Below, one piece after another: positions 42,117 through 47,452 of a stretch of 63,255 nucleotides of DNA. Each line of letters opens with the position of its first letter. Positions within the stretch are counted from its first letter, which is position 1. A program made the translations under genes and the position numbers. Source of the stretch: Dehalococcoidia bacterium (GTDB lineage Bacteria > Chloroflexota > Dehalococcoidia > Lucifugimonadales > SHYT01). Location of the stretch: NCBI GenBank assembly GCA_009693045.1, contig SHXZ01000013.1, positions 1-63,255 on the forward strand, read 5' to 3'. Below the pieces are notes generated by a model. That model had not been told where the DNA came from and made no database searches. It saw nothing but the letters and a program-made list of their open reading frames with translations.

Positions 42117-42251
42117 GAGCGGTCGCCACAAGCCCAGGACTGGCTGTAATGAGGCAGCCCACGAATTTCCTCCTCCGCTTCACAAGCCTTTGGCGGCAAC
42201 CGTTGCCAATCGTTCGTCCAAAAACAAGCGACTCAACCTGTCACTCCCTAC

Positions 42252-42608
42252 CTAACCGGCGCCGGTCAGCGCCTCCGCCGCCTCCGATGGCCTGAACCCG
42301 AACAAGACCCGGTCGCCGACGACGATGATTGGCCGCCGGATCAGGCGAGGCTCTTTCAGCATCGAGGCGAGCATCTCGTCCTCGGAGAGCTGCTTTCCGG
42401 CCAGCCCCAGCGCCCTGACCGACGGCGACTTCCACGAGAACGCCTCGGCCACACGACCCTTGAGCAGCGCCCGCAGCTCCGCCGGCGTGAACCGCTGCTG
42501 AAAGAAATCGCGCTCCTGGATCATGACGTCCGCATGCGCGAGGAACTCTCGCGCTTTCTTGCACGTCGTTCACCTGGCGTAGTGGTAGACCCTCACCGTT
42601 GCGGCCAT
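42252..42608 (-). CDS. ArsC/Spx-like selenoprotein candidate (UGA = Sec13)
   Basis: 118 residues if TGA 42572-42570 is read through. ATG 42608 follows AGGAGGT by 6 nt. The frame is MAATVRVYHYAR-U-TTC-KKAREFLAHADV, and continues LKGRVAEAFSWKSPSVRAL to RRPIIVVGDRVLFGFRPSEA, a full ArsC/Spx-type thioredoxin fold. The UGA replaces the first cysteine of the expected CTTC active site. A 7-bp stem-loop 15 nt downstream fits a bacterial SECIS. It lies 19 nt after the HAD gene in an apparent operon. The likely role is thiol/selenol reduction of arsenate or another oxidant, or an Spx-like role; activity is inferred. Alternative: a nonsense-mutated Cys form. Confidence 0.85.
42536..42554 (-). promoter_or_regulatory. 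SECIS-like stem-loop of ArsC/Spx-like gene
   Basis: Perfect 7-bp stem GCGCGAG/CTCGCGC with loop AGTTC (G at loop position 2), starting 15 nt after the UGA. Spacing and loop fit bacterial SECIS rules. Confidence 0.7.
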
Positions 42609-42627
42609 CGCTGGACCTCCTGCACGC

Positions 42628-43326
42628 TCAGTGACCGAAGAGTCCCTCAACCTCTTGCATCGTGTGCACGATGGGGCAGTCCGCCGCGCCGCTGGTGCGG
42701 TAGCGGTCCATGAGCACTGGCTGAATGCCCACCGCTCTCGCGCCCTCCACGTCGGAGGCGATCTGGTCGCCAACGTGGACGGCCTCGCCAGGAGAAACCC
42801 CCGCCCTCGCCAGCGCGGCCCTGAACATCGCTGGGTCGGGCTTCTCCGCCCGCGTCTCGTGTGACGTAACCACAAAGTGGACAACTCCATCCAGCCCAAG
42901 CTCCTGGGCGAGCGCCGCGCCTGGCCGATTAATGTTGGAGATCACCCCGAGCGTCAACTTGCGCTGCTTAAGGCGCGCCATGGCGGGAAGCACATCGTCA
43001 AACAGCGCCAGGTTGTAACGGGCTTGCCGGACCCGCTCCCATATCCTCTCGGCGAGGGCGAGGTCGACCTCCGCTCCGGCACCCTTGAGGATGAGCTGCT
43101 CGTAACGGGCGAAGAACGCCCGCGTCTGCTCTTGAGTGAGCGTGCGGAGCGGCGTGGTGGAGGCGTTCTGCTGCGTCATGTGCGCGTCAGCGAGCGCGTA
43201 GCCGAGGTCAATTCCCGCGGACGCCACGGCAATGCCGAACTCCTTGCACGCCTCGGCTTGCACCTGATCACGTGGCGGCCAGAACCGCGCGAGCGTGTTG
43301 AACAGATCAAAAAAGACCGCTCTCAT
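42628..43326 (-). CDS. HAD-superfamily hydrolase
   Basis: 232 residues from ATG 43326. Motif I is FFDLFNTLA (DxFxT), motif II is GVISNINRP, motif III has EKPDPAMFRAAL and motif IV VHVGDQIASDVEGARAVG. The helical cap (about 15-105) is of the C1 type, as in phosphatases and haloacid dehalogenases. The substrate is unknown. The downstream selenoprotein candidate starts 19 nt after its stop. Confidence 0.85.
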   Translation of the reverse strand: MRAVFFDLFNTLARFWPPRDQVQAEACKEFGIAVASAGIDLGYALADAHMTQQNASTTPLRTLTQEQTRAFFARYEQLILKGAGAEVDLALAERIWERVRQARYNLALFDDVLPAMARLKQRKLTLGVISNINRPGAALAQELGLDGVVHFVVTSHETRAEKPDPAMFRAALARAGVSPGEAVHVGDQIASDVEGARAVGIQPVLMDRYRTSGAADCPIVHTMQEVEGLFGH

Positions 43327-43472
43327 CCCATGCAGCTGGCCACGTGTCACCATGCAACGATTCTAGCAGGCGTCGGCGAGAGAGAGAACGGGACGGAATA
43401 CGATCGGTGCGGCCTGAGCCACGCGTACTAGACTCCTGAGAGACGAGCGACGGGGCTTTTCCGGGAGGGCTA

Positions 43473-44201
43473 TTGGTTTCGTACGGGGTTGCACGGCGGG
43501 CGTACGGGAGTCTCTTGGACTTGGTCTTTCCGCCGCAGTGCGCCGCGTGCGGAGCCGGCGGCGCGTGGCTGTGCGCGGCGTGCTCGGCACGCTTCCGCAG
43601 GCTGGAGCCGCCCTTTTGCGCCAGGTGCACGCAGCCGTTGCTACTCGCGGAAAGCGCAGCGCCTGAAACCTCGGCACCACTCTGCGCGCGGTGCGCCAGA
43701 GCCCCACTCGCCCTGGAGAGCATCAGCGCGCCGTTCCTCATGGAAGGCCCCGTCCGCGAGATGGTCCACCGCCTGAAGTACGACGGGTGGCGCGTCCTCG
43801 CGGGTATCCTTGCGAAGGCGCTTGCCGAGAGTCTGGCGCGCAGCGGGCAACGCCCCGATGTCCTGGCGCCGGTGCCGCTGCACCTTTCCCGCGAGCGGGA
43901 GCGAGGCTACAACCAGGCCTCCCTCCTGGCGCACGAGCTGAGCAACCTGGCCCGCATACCCGTGGCGAGGCGCGCTCTGCTCCGCGTGCGTCCCACACCG
44001 CCACAGGTCGACGCCCCAAACGCCGCGGCGCGGGAGGCCGCCGTCGCGGGTGCGTTTCGGTGCAATGACCCGACGATGCGAGGTCGCAGCGTCATGCTGG
44101 TGGATGACGTGTGCACCACGGGGGCGACGTTGAACGCCTGCGCGGTTCCCCTGCTCGCGGCCGGCGTCGCTGAGGTGCGCGGTTTGGTCGTGGCCAGGTA
44201 G
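43473..44201 (+). CDS. comF: ComF family phosphoribosyltransferase-like protein
   Basis: 242 residues. The N-terminal double zinc finger (CAACGAGGAWLCAAC, CARC, CARC) and the PRT motif VMLVDDVCTTGATL are diagnostic, with APVPLHLSRERERGYNQA between. The start is probably TTG 43473, 5 nt after GGGAGG; no ATG is available nearby. ComF proteins are linked to DNA uptake and handling. It precedes hpf, a common neighbour. Confidence 0.86.
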   Translation: MVSYGVARRAYGSLLDLVFPPQCAACGAGGAWLCAACSARFRRLEPPFCARCTQPLLLAESAAPETSAPLCARCARAPLALESISAPFLMEGPVREMVHRLKYDGWRVLAGILAKALAESLARSGQRPDVLAPVPLHLSRERERGYNQASLLAHELSNLARIPVARRALLRVRPTPPQVDAPNAAAREAAVAGAFRCNDPTMRGRSVMLVDDVCTTGATLNACAVPLLAAGVAEVRGLVVAR

Positions 44202-44379
44202 TCGTAGCGGTTGAGCCCTGCTTCCGGCGCCGATACACTGGAAGCGGGTGCCGGACAACCCAAGACGCTTTGGCAGGCGGTGTTCAGGCCAAGACCCGTT
44301 CAACCAGGTACGCTGTTTGCACACTATGCTTGCAAGCCATCGTTCTGAAATACGCGAAACACAGCAGGCGGTCTTTCCC

Positions 44380-44959
44380 ATGGACGTGGTCTGGCAGGCC
44401 CGCAACCTGAAGCTGAACGACGAGGTCAAGAAGCGGATTGACCGTAAGCTCCAAAGCCTGGGGGAAAAGTTCCAAGCCATCGCGAAGGCCGAAATAGAGG
44501 TGACCAGAGAGCATATCCGCTCGCATATGGACCAGGTGGTCACGCAGGTCACGCTCAACGGCGAAGGGATACTGCTCCGGTCAGAGGAGCGCGGCCCGGA
44601 CGTACTCACCGCCGTGGACTCAGCCATGAAGGCGCTGGACAGCCGCGTGCGGCATATGAAGGGGAAGCTGTACCACAGCGAGGCTGGCCATCGCGCCACG
44701 AGGCGGTCGCAGGCTCTGGAAGACGCTCGTCCTTCCGCTGAACCGCCACCTGAAACGGAATCGGATGACCTGCCAAAAAAACATCGTGCGGGTCAAGAGG
44801 TTTTACATGAAGGCCATGCCGGCCCAAGAGGCCATCCAGCAGATGGAGTTGCTGGGCCACACGTTCTTTTTCTTTGAGGACGGCGCCACCGGCGATCACG
44901 CGGTGGTCTATAAGCGTCGGGACGGCAAATACGCGCTCATTGAACCGGAGGATGAGTAG
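44380..44959 (+). CDS. hpf: Long-form ribosome hibernation factor HPF, frameshifted at an A7 run
   Basis: Frame 1 from ATG 44380 (MDVVWQARNLKLNDEVKKRI) covers the S30AE/YfiA domain to about DLPKK. The conserved C-terminal dimerisation domain (IVRVKRFYMKAMPAQEAIQQ, then LLGHTFFFFED and DGKYALIEPEDE) continues in another frame after the seven-A run at 44775-44781. A one-base change there rebuilds a normal long HPF, so this is a sequencing error, a mutation, or slippage at the run. Long HPF dimerises 70S ribosomes in stationary phase. Confidence 0.85.
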
Positions 44960-45401
44960 GACTTCTGCACCTCTTATACCAGTTCTGAGCAGAGGTGGCG
45001 GTGATCTTTGGGAAACACGCTCCCAATCCCGTTCGTCCTGAGCCTATCAAAGGATGAACGGGGTTGGGAGGACAGGCACGGGCATCACCGCCACTTTCAA
45101 TCAGAGTTGGAGTTACGCGGTTGCGCGTCAGCCCATGCTCACCGCCGCCATTCTGAGAGAGCGAAGCGACCGAGGAACCTCCCCACGTTTCGTTACCCGC
45201 CCAGATACCTGCGGAGATTCTTCGCGGAGTTCACCCTGAGCGAAGCGAATGGGCTCAGAATTGCGAGGATACGGTTGTTCCCTCAGGCCTGATGTCTCCA
45301 AGTGCGTAAGTCCTACAGAACTGGTATGAGAGCGGGCGCTACCAAGTAAGGGCGGTTTGCAAGCCGCCCCTACTTTCGTTTGTCTCCCACGCAACAAAAG
45401 G
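44960..45401. other. Gene-free, repeat-rich region
   Basis: 440 bp packed with dispersed repeats: family C (CCCGTTCGTCCTGAGCC at about 45031), the ATTCTGAGAGAGCGAAGCGA type (about 45150) and a family A palindrome (45346-45372). No coding signal is seen. Confidence 0.6.
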
Positions 45402-46010
45402 TTACGAGCCTTTGCCCTCCTTCAAGAGGCGCTCCGTCACTACGCGCCGGAACAGCTCGTACGGGTAGGCGCCTTCCACGGCGTAGCGCCCATTGAAGAT
45501 GAACGTTGGGACGGCGGTGACGCCCAGTTGGCGCACGGCGTCCAGCTTCTGGTCCACTAGGTCACGATACGCGCGCTCGGTGAGCGCATTGTCCAAGGGC
45601 TCCCTCGGCAGGCCAACCTCATCGGCCACCTGGAGCAACACCTCCCGCGTGCCGATGTTCAGGCCACGGCGCCAGTAGGCGTCAAAGACGGCGCGGTGAA
45701 ACTCGGCCCCCTTGCCCTGCGCCTTCGCGTGCTCCGTGGCCTCAAAGGAGAGGTGCGGATTCGGCGTCACCGTCGGCGTGTTCATCTCAAGCCCCGCCTC
45801 TTGGGCCATTTGCTGCACGCGGTTCGGCCCCAGTGCGCCGCGCTGCTCCCGAGGACGGCCTTCCAGCGGCAGCTCCGGGTGCAGCTCGTACGGTTGCCAT
45901 TCCACTTCCACCTCTGCGCCGAACTCTTGCTGAAGCCTATCGACCCGCTCCAGGCCGATGTAGCAAAAAGGTCAGATGTAGTCTGAGTAAACCGTGAGCT
46001 TGATGGTCAT
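45402..46010 (-). CDS. DsbA/FrnE-like selenoprotein candidate (UGA = Sec13)
   Basis: 202 residues if TGA 45974-45972 is read as Sec. ATG 46010 follows GGAGGT. The frame is MTIKLTVYSDYI-U-PFC-YIGLERVDR, then the DsbA helical domain (NPHLSFEATEHAKAQGKGAE, LLQVADEVGLP) and VTAVPTFIFNGRYAVEGAYP with the cis-Pro loop. Family members have CPFC here, so UGA replaces the nucleophilic cysteine. A 7-bp stem-loop starts 12 nt downstream. FrnE-type proteins are cytoplasmic (no signal peptide, as here) disulfide oxidoreductases linked to oxidative stress; the substrate is unknown. Confidence 0.87.
45939..45959 (-). promoter_or_regulatory. SECIS-like stem-loop of DsbA-like gene
   Basis: Stem ATCGGCC/GGTCGAT (7 bp, one G-U) with loop TGGAGCG (G at loop position 2), starting 12 nt after the UGA. 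Confidence 0.65.
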
Positions 46011-46544
46011 TGCTACCTCCGTGTTCTGCTCTGCACTACAGCCGGGCTTAAGCGGCCCGCATTGCTGCGATGATGCGCTGTCCTGCCGAACACGTCAACA
46101 CTCAGTCAACGGGCGGCATTGGAGCGGAATCGTCATGTGGCCGCGCTGCAAGACAACGCCGGCCACGACCAGGCTGCGTGAGCTCGGATGTAGGCGGCGC
46201 AGGCGGCCAGATAACCAACATCCTTGTTGCGCTGAGACAGGACCGGGACGTAGCGGCGACAGGCCAATCCATCGGTTCCAACTCATTGCTGAGAATCCCT
46301 CATGCCAATAGCGCCTAGCACCCTAAACGATGAATATGGAAGAATAGGCTGTGGCTTCCCGGCTGCGTGTGACCTCTCCCCTGCCCCTCCCCTCAAGGGG
46401 AGGGCAGAATGTTGTCCCTCTTCCCTGCATGGAAGAGGGACAGGGCGTTAGGTTCGCGAAGCGCCGATGAGCGGTTTACCGTGCCAGTACAGCGAGTCGT
46501 GAATGAAATCCGATTGAGTTGGAACCGATGCTGGCCAGTCGCAC
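46011..46544. other. Gene-free region flanked by long inverted repeat
   Basis: 530 bp between two selenoprotein candidates. It includes a 16-bp perfect inverted repeat (CATCGGTTCCAACTCA at 46270-46285 and its complement at 46515-46530) around family B palindromes at about 46376-46458. No gene is seen. Confidence 0.5.
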
Positions 46545-47036
46545 CTACACGTTGAGCCTGCACCGCAAGCACCGCACCTGCTCCAACACTGCCTCCTCCG
46601 CCGGTATCTCCCACTGCTGCCGCCCGATGTGCGCAAACTGCACAACGCCCTCCGCATCCACGACGAACAGACCGGGCCGCTGCCCCAGCGACGTTGCGCG
46701 GCTGGCGACGCCATATCGAGCAAAGACCTCGCACTCAGGGTCAGCCAGGACAGGGAACGGAAGCGGGGCGCGCGCCAGGTAGCGTTGCGCCTCCTCCACC
46801 GTCGCGGGGGCGACGGCGAGGATCTGGGCGTTCGCAGTGCGAAAGTGCGGCTCATGCCCCGCCAGACGACGGAGGTGCCTTCGGCAGAACGGTCAGAAGA
46901 AGCCCCTCAGAAAGACCAACACGACACAGGCGCGACCACGGAAGTCGGCGAGAGACACCGTGGCCCCGCTGGCGGCGGCTAGGCTGAACTCCGGCGCCGG
47001 CGAGCCGATGCCTTGGGGCCGATGGGGAAGGAGCAC
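46545..47036 (-). CDS. Peroxiredoxin-like selenoprotein candidate (UGA = Sec48)
   Basis: 163 residues if TGA 46895-46893 is read as Sec. The frame has GSPAPEFSLAAASGATVSLA, DFRGRACVVLVFLRGFF-U-PFC-RRHLRRL, AQILAVAPATVEEAQRYLA and FPVLADPECEVFARYGV, a complete AhpC/TSA fold of the PRXL2/YFRG type. UGA stands at the peroxidatic cysteine of a CPFC motif. A 7-bp stem-loop starts 18 nt downstream. The start is uncertain; GTG 47036 is the best in-frame choice just before the conserved part, without a clear ribosome site. The role is probably selenol-based peroxide reduction. It overlaps nothing but follows the HAD-like gene closely. Confidence 0.85.
46857..46874 (-). promoter_or_regulatory. SECIS-like stem-loop of peroxiredoxin-like gene
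   Basis: Stem CTCCGTC/GGCGGGG (7 bp, two G-U) with loop GTCT (G at loop position 1), starting 18 nt after the UGA. Confidence 0.6.
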
Positions 47037-47080
47037 CGCATCTGCCTGTGGCGGAATCGCGTGGAAGCGCCGGTCGCGCC

Positions 47081-47452
47081 CTACAGCATGCTGCCGAGGG
47101 CGGTGAGCTCCTCAAGCACGCGGTACAGCTCGCGGTCCTCCGGGTCGGGCCCGCGAAAGGCCTCCACCAGAATGCCGGAGTACTTCTGCACCAGGTACCA
47201 GTCGTCGTCAACGATCAGGTCGGGCTTTACCGGGCAGGCGGGGTCCTTGTCAAAGCACGCGGTGACGAACAACGCCAGATCATAGCGCCCAACCAGCCGC
47301 TCGCAGTGGAGCTGGCCGGTGGCGGACCAGATGTAGATGTCGTGGCCCTGGCTCTTCAGCGCTGCTATCACGTGGCGCGTGCCTGGACGCAGCACCCACT
47401 CCGCGCCGGACGAGTACAACAGGGTATTATCCACGTCAAAGAAGATTCTCAT
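47081..47452 (-). CDS. Small HAD-like phosphatase-type protein
   Basis: 123 residues. FFDVDNTLLYSSG (motif I), IYIWSATGQLHCERL (motif II) and KPDLIVDDDWYLVQKY (motif III/IV) give a minimal HAD fold without a large cap. It lies 44 nt upstream of the peroxiredoxin-like selenoprotein on the same strand. The substrate is unknown. Confidence 0.75.
   Translation of the reverse strand: MRIFFDVDNTLLYSSGAEWVLRPGTRHVIAALKSQGHDIYIWSATGQLHCERLVGRYDLALFVTACFDKDPACPVKPDLIVDDDWYLVQKYSGILVEAFRGPDPEDRELYRVLEELTALGSML

Follow-up and report, generated by a model that had tools for sequence, protein, structure and literature searches.

The window analysed here is a stretch of 63,255 nucleotides, contig SHXZ01000013.1 in the assembly GCA_009693045.1 of a Dehalococcoidia bacterium (1.85 Mb, 15 contigs, 82.8% complete). 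Its minus strand carries, between positions 42252 and 47036, three reading frames that are each broken by a single TGA codon and encode an ArsC/Spx-like, a FrnE/DsbA-like and a peroxiredoxin (Prx)-like protein. With TGA read as selenocysteine (Sec, U), the ArsC-like frame yields the motif UTTC and the other two yield UPFC. A cluster of three selenoprotein genes had been proposed here from the bare sequence (hereafter, the original prediction), and both its coordinates and its count of one in-frame TGA per gene are correct.

The ArsC-like gene (42252..42608, minus strand) has 118 codons plus a stop. Its TGA (42570..42572) is codon 13, within the motif RUTTC, and the product without the initial Met counts 117 residues. 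The FrnE-like gene (45402..46010, minus strand) encodes 202 amino acids, with the TGA (45972..45974) likewise at codon 13 (YIUPFCY). The Prx-like gene (46545..47036, minus strand) encodes 163 amino acids, and its TGA (46893..46895; FFUPFCR) is codon 48 as counted from a GTG start, which is uncertain. The ATG starts of the ArsC-like and FrnE-like genes are preceded by AGGAGGT and GGAGG, respectively, which by eye make good ribosome-binding sites. All three read-through frames stay open up to a normal stop. A codon-usage scan for read-through frames over the entire window, run without the coordinates of the cluster as input, passed five candidates, namely, these three genes and two doubtful frames, which overlap opposite-strand open reading frames (ORFs) of 545 and 947 codons with coding scores of their own. 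The three in-frame TGA codons exceed chance.

Each read-through product passes the cut-off of a Pfam family: ArsC (PF03960; 66.8 bits, gathering cut-off 24), DSBA (PF01323; 116.3 bits, cut-off 25.6) and AhpC-TSA (PF00578; 99.1 bits, cut-off 26), respectively. In addition, the ArsC-like protein scores 74.8 bits against TIGR01617 (Spx/MgsR), 0.25 short of the curated cut-off of 75.05. Solved relatives are ArsC/Spx proteins (best 2m46) for the ArsC-like, FrnE proteins 5cnw/5cp1 (E = 2e−19) for the FrnE-like and the peroxiredoxin Rv2238c for the Prx-like protein. The ArsC, DSBA and AhpC-TSA families all have a thioredoxin-type fold. Given a Sec–Cys pair in this fold, the three products are predicted to be selenol/thiol-disulfide oxidoreductases. 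The TxxC motif of peroxiredoxins bears the peroxidatic Cys. The UPFC of the Prx-like protein aligns with TGIC of Rv2238c, so that Sec takes the Thr position and the Cys is kept. Since UPFC thus stands where a peroxidase would have TxxC, a classical peroxidase role of this protein is doubtful. The proposal that each TGA occupies the first cysteine of the family's CxxC therefore holds for the ArsC-like and FrnE-like genes, but not in so simple a form for the Prx-like gene: there the TGA opens the UxxC, at a position where ordinary peroxiredoxins carry Thr (9 of 30 aligned loci, as well as Rv2238c).

Selenocysteine machinery and conservation of the TGA codons

The assembly that holds the window contains one match each to SelA (566 bits, curated cut-off 267.9), SelB (322 bits, cut-off 242.25) and SelD (398 bits, cut-off 125), together with a tRNA-Sec gene (73.5 bits) that ARAGORN also calls tRNA-Sec, with the anticodon TCA. 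A second match to the tRNA-Sec model above the gathering score is a tRNA-Ser according to ARAGORN. Thus, selA, selB, selD and tRNA-Sec, the set by which Sec use is recognised in a bacterial genome and whose absence would have refuted the original prediction, are all found in this one. The SelD gene on contig C14 itself has, as read by eye, a TGA near its N-terminus (L007 1531-1533; HCAGUAAKF); Sec-containing SelD is an already known kind.

To follow the TGA codons in relatives, we used an order-level sample of 98 genomes, consisting of the window's own and others of its family and order. The ArsC-like protein was matched in 59 genomes, of which 56 have one TGA (counting G005, which also has a TAG, and G013, where the match is in pieces) and three have none. 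For FrnE, 60 genomes match at E ≤ 0.001; we counted the 42 with strong full-length matches (E ≤ 1e−16) and left out 18 with weaker or partial ones, many of which stop short of the Sec column. One TGA is present in 41 of the 42, G002 being the sole exception, and one of the 41 (G008) has an extra weak FrnE copy without a stop. Prx matches take in paralogues and cover at least 96 of the 98 genomes, so no genome count is given for the Prx TGA.

At the codon level, we aligned 30 fetched loci per family, including the window's own, the rest coming from other genomes. The Sec column holds TGA in 29 FrnE loci (TGC in one), 27 ArsC loci (TGC in three) and 21 Prx loci, the remaining nine having Thr codons. 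Hence, the pattern that identifies bacterial selenoproteins, a conserved Cys or Sec at the in-frame UGA, is seen for FrnE and ArsC, as the original prediction anticipated, whereas in Prx the alternative residue is Thr, not Cys. Its argument that random nonsense mutations could not account for the three codons is likewise borne out by these columns. Among 151 genomes drawn from across the phylum, 17 matched the ArsC-like protein, the own genome included; the column is TGA in 15 of the 16 others, and the remaining one is a remote match without the motif. Differences from G001, a genome of the same family, past the TGA fall on codon positions 1/2/3 as 48/36/85 (FrnE), 24/28/50 (ArsC) and 34/31/56 (Prx), a third-position bias that indicates selection on the downstream coding sequence.

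Two further observations concern homologues. In relatives (L093, L097-L099), the Prx paralogues whose Sec column holds Thr have one TGA elsewhere, perhaps at the peroxidatic position (TxxU). A scan for FrnE homologues with Cys, whose pattern admitted Cys codons only and is thus silent on Sec frequency, gave Cys in 80 of 80 aligned loci (the best 80 of 179). Among these, Lokiarchaeota records (L113-L120, 36-41% identity) rank next after a Dehalococcoidia one, which may hint at gene transfer.

The residue at the ArsC column largely follows the machinery. SelA is above the cut-off in 83 of the 98 genomes, including 52 of the 56 with an ArsC TGA; the other four (G025, G056, G079 and G097) have SelB above the cut-off. 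By contrast, all three genomes with Cys in ArsC lack SelA above the cut-off (Fisher p = 0.0011, related genomes not being independent). The corresponding comparison for FrnE involves a single Cys genome and gives p = 0.12, with the same non-independence. In two of the three ArsC-Cys genomes, G002 and G032, SelB is not above the cut-off either, and the two best matches to the tRNA-Sec model in each are tRNA-Ser.

Hairpins and probable decoding of the TGA codons

A hairpin follows each TGA on the minus strand. The bacterial Sec insertion sequence (bSECIS) hairpin of the ArsC-like gene (42536..42554) has a spacer of 15 nt, a 7-bp stem and the 5-nt loop AGUUC (−11.9 kcal/mol). The bSECIS-like hairpin of the FrnE-like gene (45939..45959) has a 12-nt spacer, 9 bp and the 3-nt loop GAG (−10.8 kcal/mol), and that of the Prx-like gene (46857..46874) an 18-nt spacer, 7 bp and the 4-nt loop GUCU (−9.2 kcal/mol). 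The spacers of 12-18 nt and the 7-bp stems had been noted before; in FrnE, the stem is instead 9 bp long. The bSECIS model, as given in the accessible text of a 2026 review (PMC13188914), specifies a loop of 3-9 nt with G among its first two bases, a stem of 4-16 bp, a distance of 16-37 nt from UGA to loop and an energy of at most −7.5. All three hairpins fit it, with UGA-loop distances of 22 (ArsC), 21 (FrnE) and 25 nt (Prx). Taken alone, hairpins of this quality in the window are within chance for GC-rich DNA, and they become significant only across relatives.

Across relatives, the profile of folding in 30-nt segments shows a sharp dip in all three families for segments whose start lies 6-18 nt away from the TGA's first base, which supports the predicted SECIS elements. 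We also scored the 42 nt beginning 6 nt past the codon against dinucleotide shuffles. Mean folding z was −1.71 for ArsC (n = 27), −1.19 for FrnE (n = 29) and −1.07 for Prx (n = 21) in TGA genes, compared with −0.02 for FrnE (n = 81) and +0.42 for ArsC (n = 3) in Cys genes. The ArsC hairpin covaries in the aligned sequences: 90.7% of cells are paired, both sides have changed in five of seven pairs, and there are 19 double-changed cells versus 3.9 in shuffles, none of 500 shuffles reaching that number. Its covariation score reaches 0.350, whereas shuffles give 0.195 and slid controls no more than 0.155, and RNAalifold recovers six of its seven pairs unaided. Further pair types stand out less, as 15 of 500 shuffles contain at least as many. 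Covariation support for the FrnE hairpin is weak. Rfam gave no match at the gathering score within 42200-47100; six weak matches in the region (E up to 5) were dismissed.

Taken together, the Sec machinery, the TGA kept in dozens of relatives, the Cys in a same-family relative without SelA and SelB above the cut-off and the SECIS-like hairpin make it very probable that the three are genuine selenoprotein genes in which UGA is decoded as Sec. SelB-GTP carrying Sec-tRNA(Sec) would bind the hairpin that starts 12-18 nt past each in-frame UGA, and the ribosome would then insert Sec in place of stopping. Sec would thereby open a UxxC redox pair within a thioredoxin-type fold. The products would be an ArsC/YffB/Spx-like reductase and two oxidoreductases, one FrnE/DsbA-like and the other Prx-like, the latter with Sec at the usual Thr position.

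Several observations weigh against this interpretation. Control codon positions within these genes are followed by hairpins as good or better in 12 of 96 (ArsC), 31 of 180 (FrnE) and 20 of 141 (Prx) cases. FrnE genes with Cys also show a shallow dip in the folding profile, and the 81 FrnE controls in the z comparison (80 from the Cys homologue scan plus G002) come mostly from other phyla. The FrnE hairpin does not surpass 339 of 500 shuffles in double-changed pairs, the same hairpin slid by +3 scores slightly higher (0.077 versus 0.073), and RNAalifold finds no structure in the FrnE sequences. Moreover, the ArsC and FrnE hairpins were derived from the same sequences on which they were scored, which favours them over slid versions. 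None of the three proteins reaches the cut-off of an NCBIfam selenoprotein model. The ArsC of G042 has Cys, although this genome contains SelB pieces, one of them above the cut-off, and a tRNA-Sec (66.1 bits); therefore, Cys is not strictly bound to loss of the machinery. Conversely, a FrnE TGA is present in G027, a genome 74% complete with neither SelA nor SelB above the cut-off. Finally, the neighbouring hpf-like gene is split, which points to imperfect sequence quality or gene decay nearby.

That split hpf, intact in eight matched relatives, is also what favours pseudogenes or sequencing errors, in which nonsense mutations or miscalled bases would have struck three active-site codons independently. 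Such an origin is highly improbable: the same TGA column recurs in loci that, apart from the window's own, are all from other genomes, which is decisive, the codon third-position bias continues past the TGA, and the frames run through to a normal stop. A general reassignment of UGA, for example to Trp or Gly, would make TGA an ordinary sense codon and would account for the four or more genes that are read through it (the three of the cluster and SelD among them). We regard this, too, as having hardly any chance of being correct. TGA is the stop of seven among the window's 30 long codon-biased ORFs (ORFs having been defined with TGA as a stop), and the read-through scan of the window, with its five frames, two of them doubtful, disclosed no clear case of conserved genes with TGA at unrelated positions. 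Furthermore, the codon lies within a redox motif, gives way to Cys in relatives' FrnE and ArsC genes, and is matched by a Sec-type tRNA with TCA.

Even if the genes are genuine selenoprotein genes, their clustering may be incidental, with adjacent redox genes sharing no common pathway, and we consider this an even bet. FrnE and ArsC lie apart in 22 of the 29 genomes that have both, on different contigs in 20 of these, the closest Prx homologues outside the family (in G008 and G044) do not share a contig with FrnE or ArsC, and genes on the opposite strand break up the cluster. On the other hand, G001 keeps the order Prx(U)–FrnE(U)–ArsC(U) over a span of less than 4.2 kb, so that the three-gene cluster occurs in two of the three genomes of the family, and G002, the third, has FrnE and ArsC near each other. 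The distance between FrnE and ArsC stays below 14 kb in seven of the 29 genomes, three of the window's family (2.2-3.2 kb apart) and four of another family (9-14 kb), and in G049 a Prx-like TGA gene is located ~4 kb from FrnE. The local selenium-based redox module of the original prediction thus finds partial support in the order and close spacing kept within one family and in the seven genomes of the 29 where FrnE and ArsC are close, and linkage leaves a joint role of the three genes about evenly balanced.

Neighbouring genes and gene order

A HAD hydrolase gene (42628..43353, minus strand; PF00702, 87.4 bits) ends 19 bases before the ArsC-like start codon, and the two genes likely form one operon. 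In G002 (L109 9301-10431), HAD and ArsC(Cys) run as one uninterrupted ORF of 376 codons, possibly a natural fusion, which would support a functional link. A comF-like gene (43473..44201, plus strand) matches PF18912 (40.6 bits) and falls slightly below the cut-off for PF00156 (25.5 versus 26.3). The hpf-like gene (44380..44959, plus strand) is split over two frames, with its N-domain (PF02482) and C-domain (PF16321) in different frames and an A-run at 44775-44781, where a −1 shift would be possible at A_AAA_AAC. A search of 25 genomes, the own included, gave eight matching relatives, in which the open frame with the C-domain spans 197-251 residues, compared with 99 residues here; an assembly indel, gene decay or a programmed frameshift may lie behind the split. 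Of the genes linked to the cluster in the original prediction (HAD, comF and hpf), comF is probably a bystander and hpf looks like one. Between hpf and the FrnE-like gene, the stretch 45007-45290 is palindrome-rich and gives only weak Rfam matches; it resembles dispersed REP-like repeats. Upstream of the Prx-like gene lies a HAD/NIF-like phosphatase gene (47081..47452, minus strand; PF03031, 25.9 bits, cut-off 21.8), with a close homologue, as judged by eye, flanking the cluster on this side in both G001 and G002.

HAD and comF homologues were also recognised by eye in the G001 cluster. In G002, which lacks SelA and SelB above the cut-off, FrnE(Cys) and ArsC(Cys) sit among the same neighbours. 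By eye, there is no Prx gene at the cluster position in G002, where 82 bases separate an ABC permease gene from FrnE; the matching interval in G001 holds Prx and a hydrolase gene. Five Prx matches are found elsewhere in G002, all weak (best E = 1.3e−10). These comparisons allow a broader scenario, which we offer tentatively as a possibility rather than a probability: Sec would be the default catalytic residue of the widespread redox proteins ArsC and FrnE in the order, opposite to the Cys majority of ocean samples, the family would have a selenium-dependent redox locus with a third Sec protein, and a relative that lost Sec decoding would have changed to Cys and lost one member. Genomes of one family with and without Sec machinery, in one gene order, offer a natural comparison of Sec and Cys enzymes, and the ArsC hairpin with its compensatory changes is well suited as a model of SECIS rules in Chloroflexota. 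With all three proteins below the cut-offs of the NCBIfam selenoprotein models, automatic annotation would probably truncate or miss their genes, and the redox capacity of the lineage may be under-read as a result.

Relation to known selenoproteins

The original prediction spoke of new selenoprotein candidates, which is true of these loci but not of the families, catalogued in 2005-2008 and again in 2026. According to the portions of these sources at hand, the Sargasso Sea selenoproteins of 2005 included ArsC as UxxS and DsbA-like and Prx-like proteins as UxxC (PMC1088965), the Global Ocean Sampling (GOS) survey of 2008 recorded selenoprotein forms of all three families, with ArsC 2 as UxxC (PMC2398784), and all three appear in reviews of 2022 (PMC9312934) and 2026 (PMC13188914). 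Sec use is known in Chloroflexi and Dehalococcoidia, as the accessible passages of several papers indicate (PMC1794560, PMC4918011, PMC4959059, PMC5736913, PMC5330540), and DsbA-like selenoproteins are described from Lokiarchaeia in the available part of PMC11227280. In the open-licence literature searched, and in the parts of it that were available, we found no report of the three-gene cluster or of near-fixation of Sec in FrnE and ArsC of this order.

The individual proteins can be set beside known groups, again as far as the accessible text of the sources goes. Like the GOS 'Arsenate reductase 2' (cd03032) and the NF041106 ArsC family (seleno)proteins, the ArsC-like protein is of ArsC type with Sec first in UxxC (PMC2398784, PMC13188914); unlike NF041106 as curated, it scores 39.8 bits against a cut-off of 85 and is not a member. 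The FrnE-like protein shares the DSBA domain and UxxC with the Sargasso Sea DsbA-like proteins (COG2761) and GOS 'DsbA 1' (PF01323). It is nearly fixed as Sec in one order, whereas GOS DsbA 1 is mostly Cys (704 Cys to 63 Sec, with 238 to 42 for ArsC 2; PMC2398784), a rough comparison, as our queries favour close orthologues. The Prx-like protein resembles the Prx-like thiol:disulfide oxidoreductase selenoproteins (PF00578), which likewise combine AhpC-TSA with UxxC replacing TxxC; unlike SelL-related members of NF040769, it reaches 88 bits, below the cut-off of 120.

At the level of gene organisation, the multi-selenoprotein operons grdA-grdB, SAO and Tso likewise have adjacent selenoprotein genes (available text of PMC13188914); the cluster described here is broken by opposite-strand genes. 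Within the same class, Dehalogenimonas alkenigignens has selC, Sec synthesis genes, the elongation factor and a UGA-containing SelD, and the Sec proteins named in the accessible part of its description are SelD and formate dehydrogenase rather than redox proteins of the kinds found here (PMC4918011). The find is therefore mostly another example of catalogued selenoprotein kinds, and what is new is the three-gene cluster and the near-fixed Sec in two of its genes across an order.

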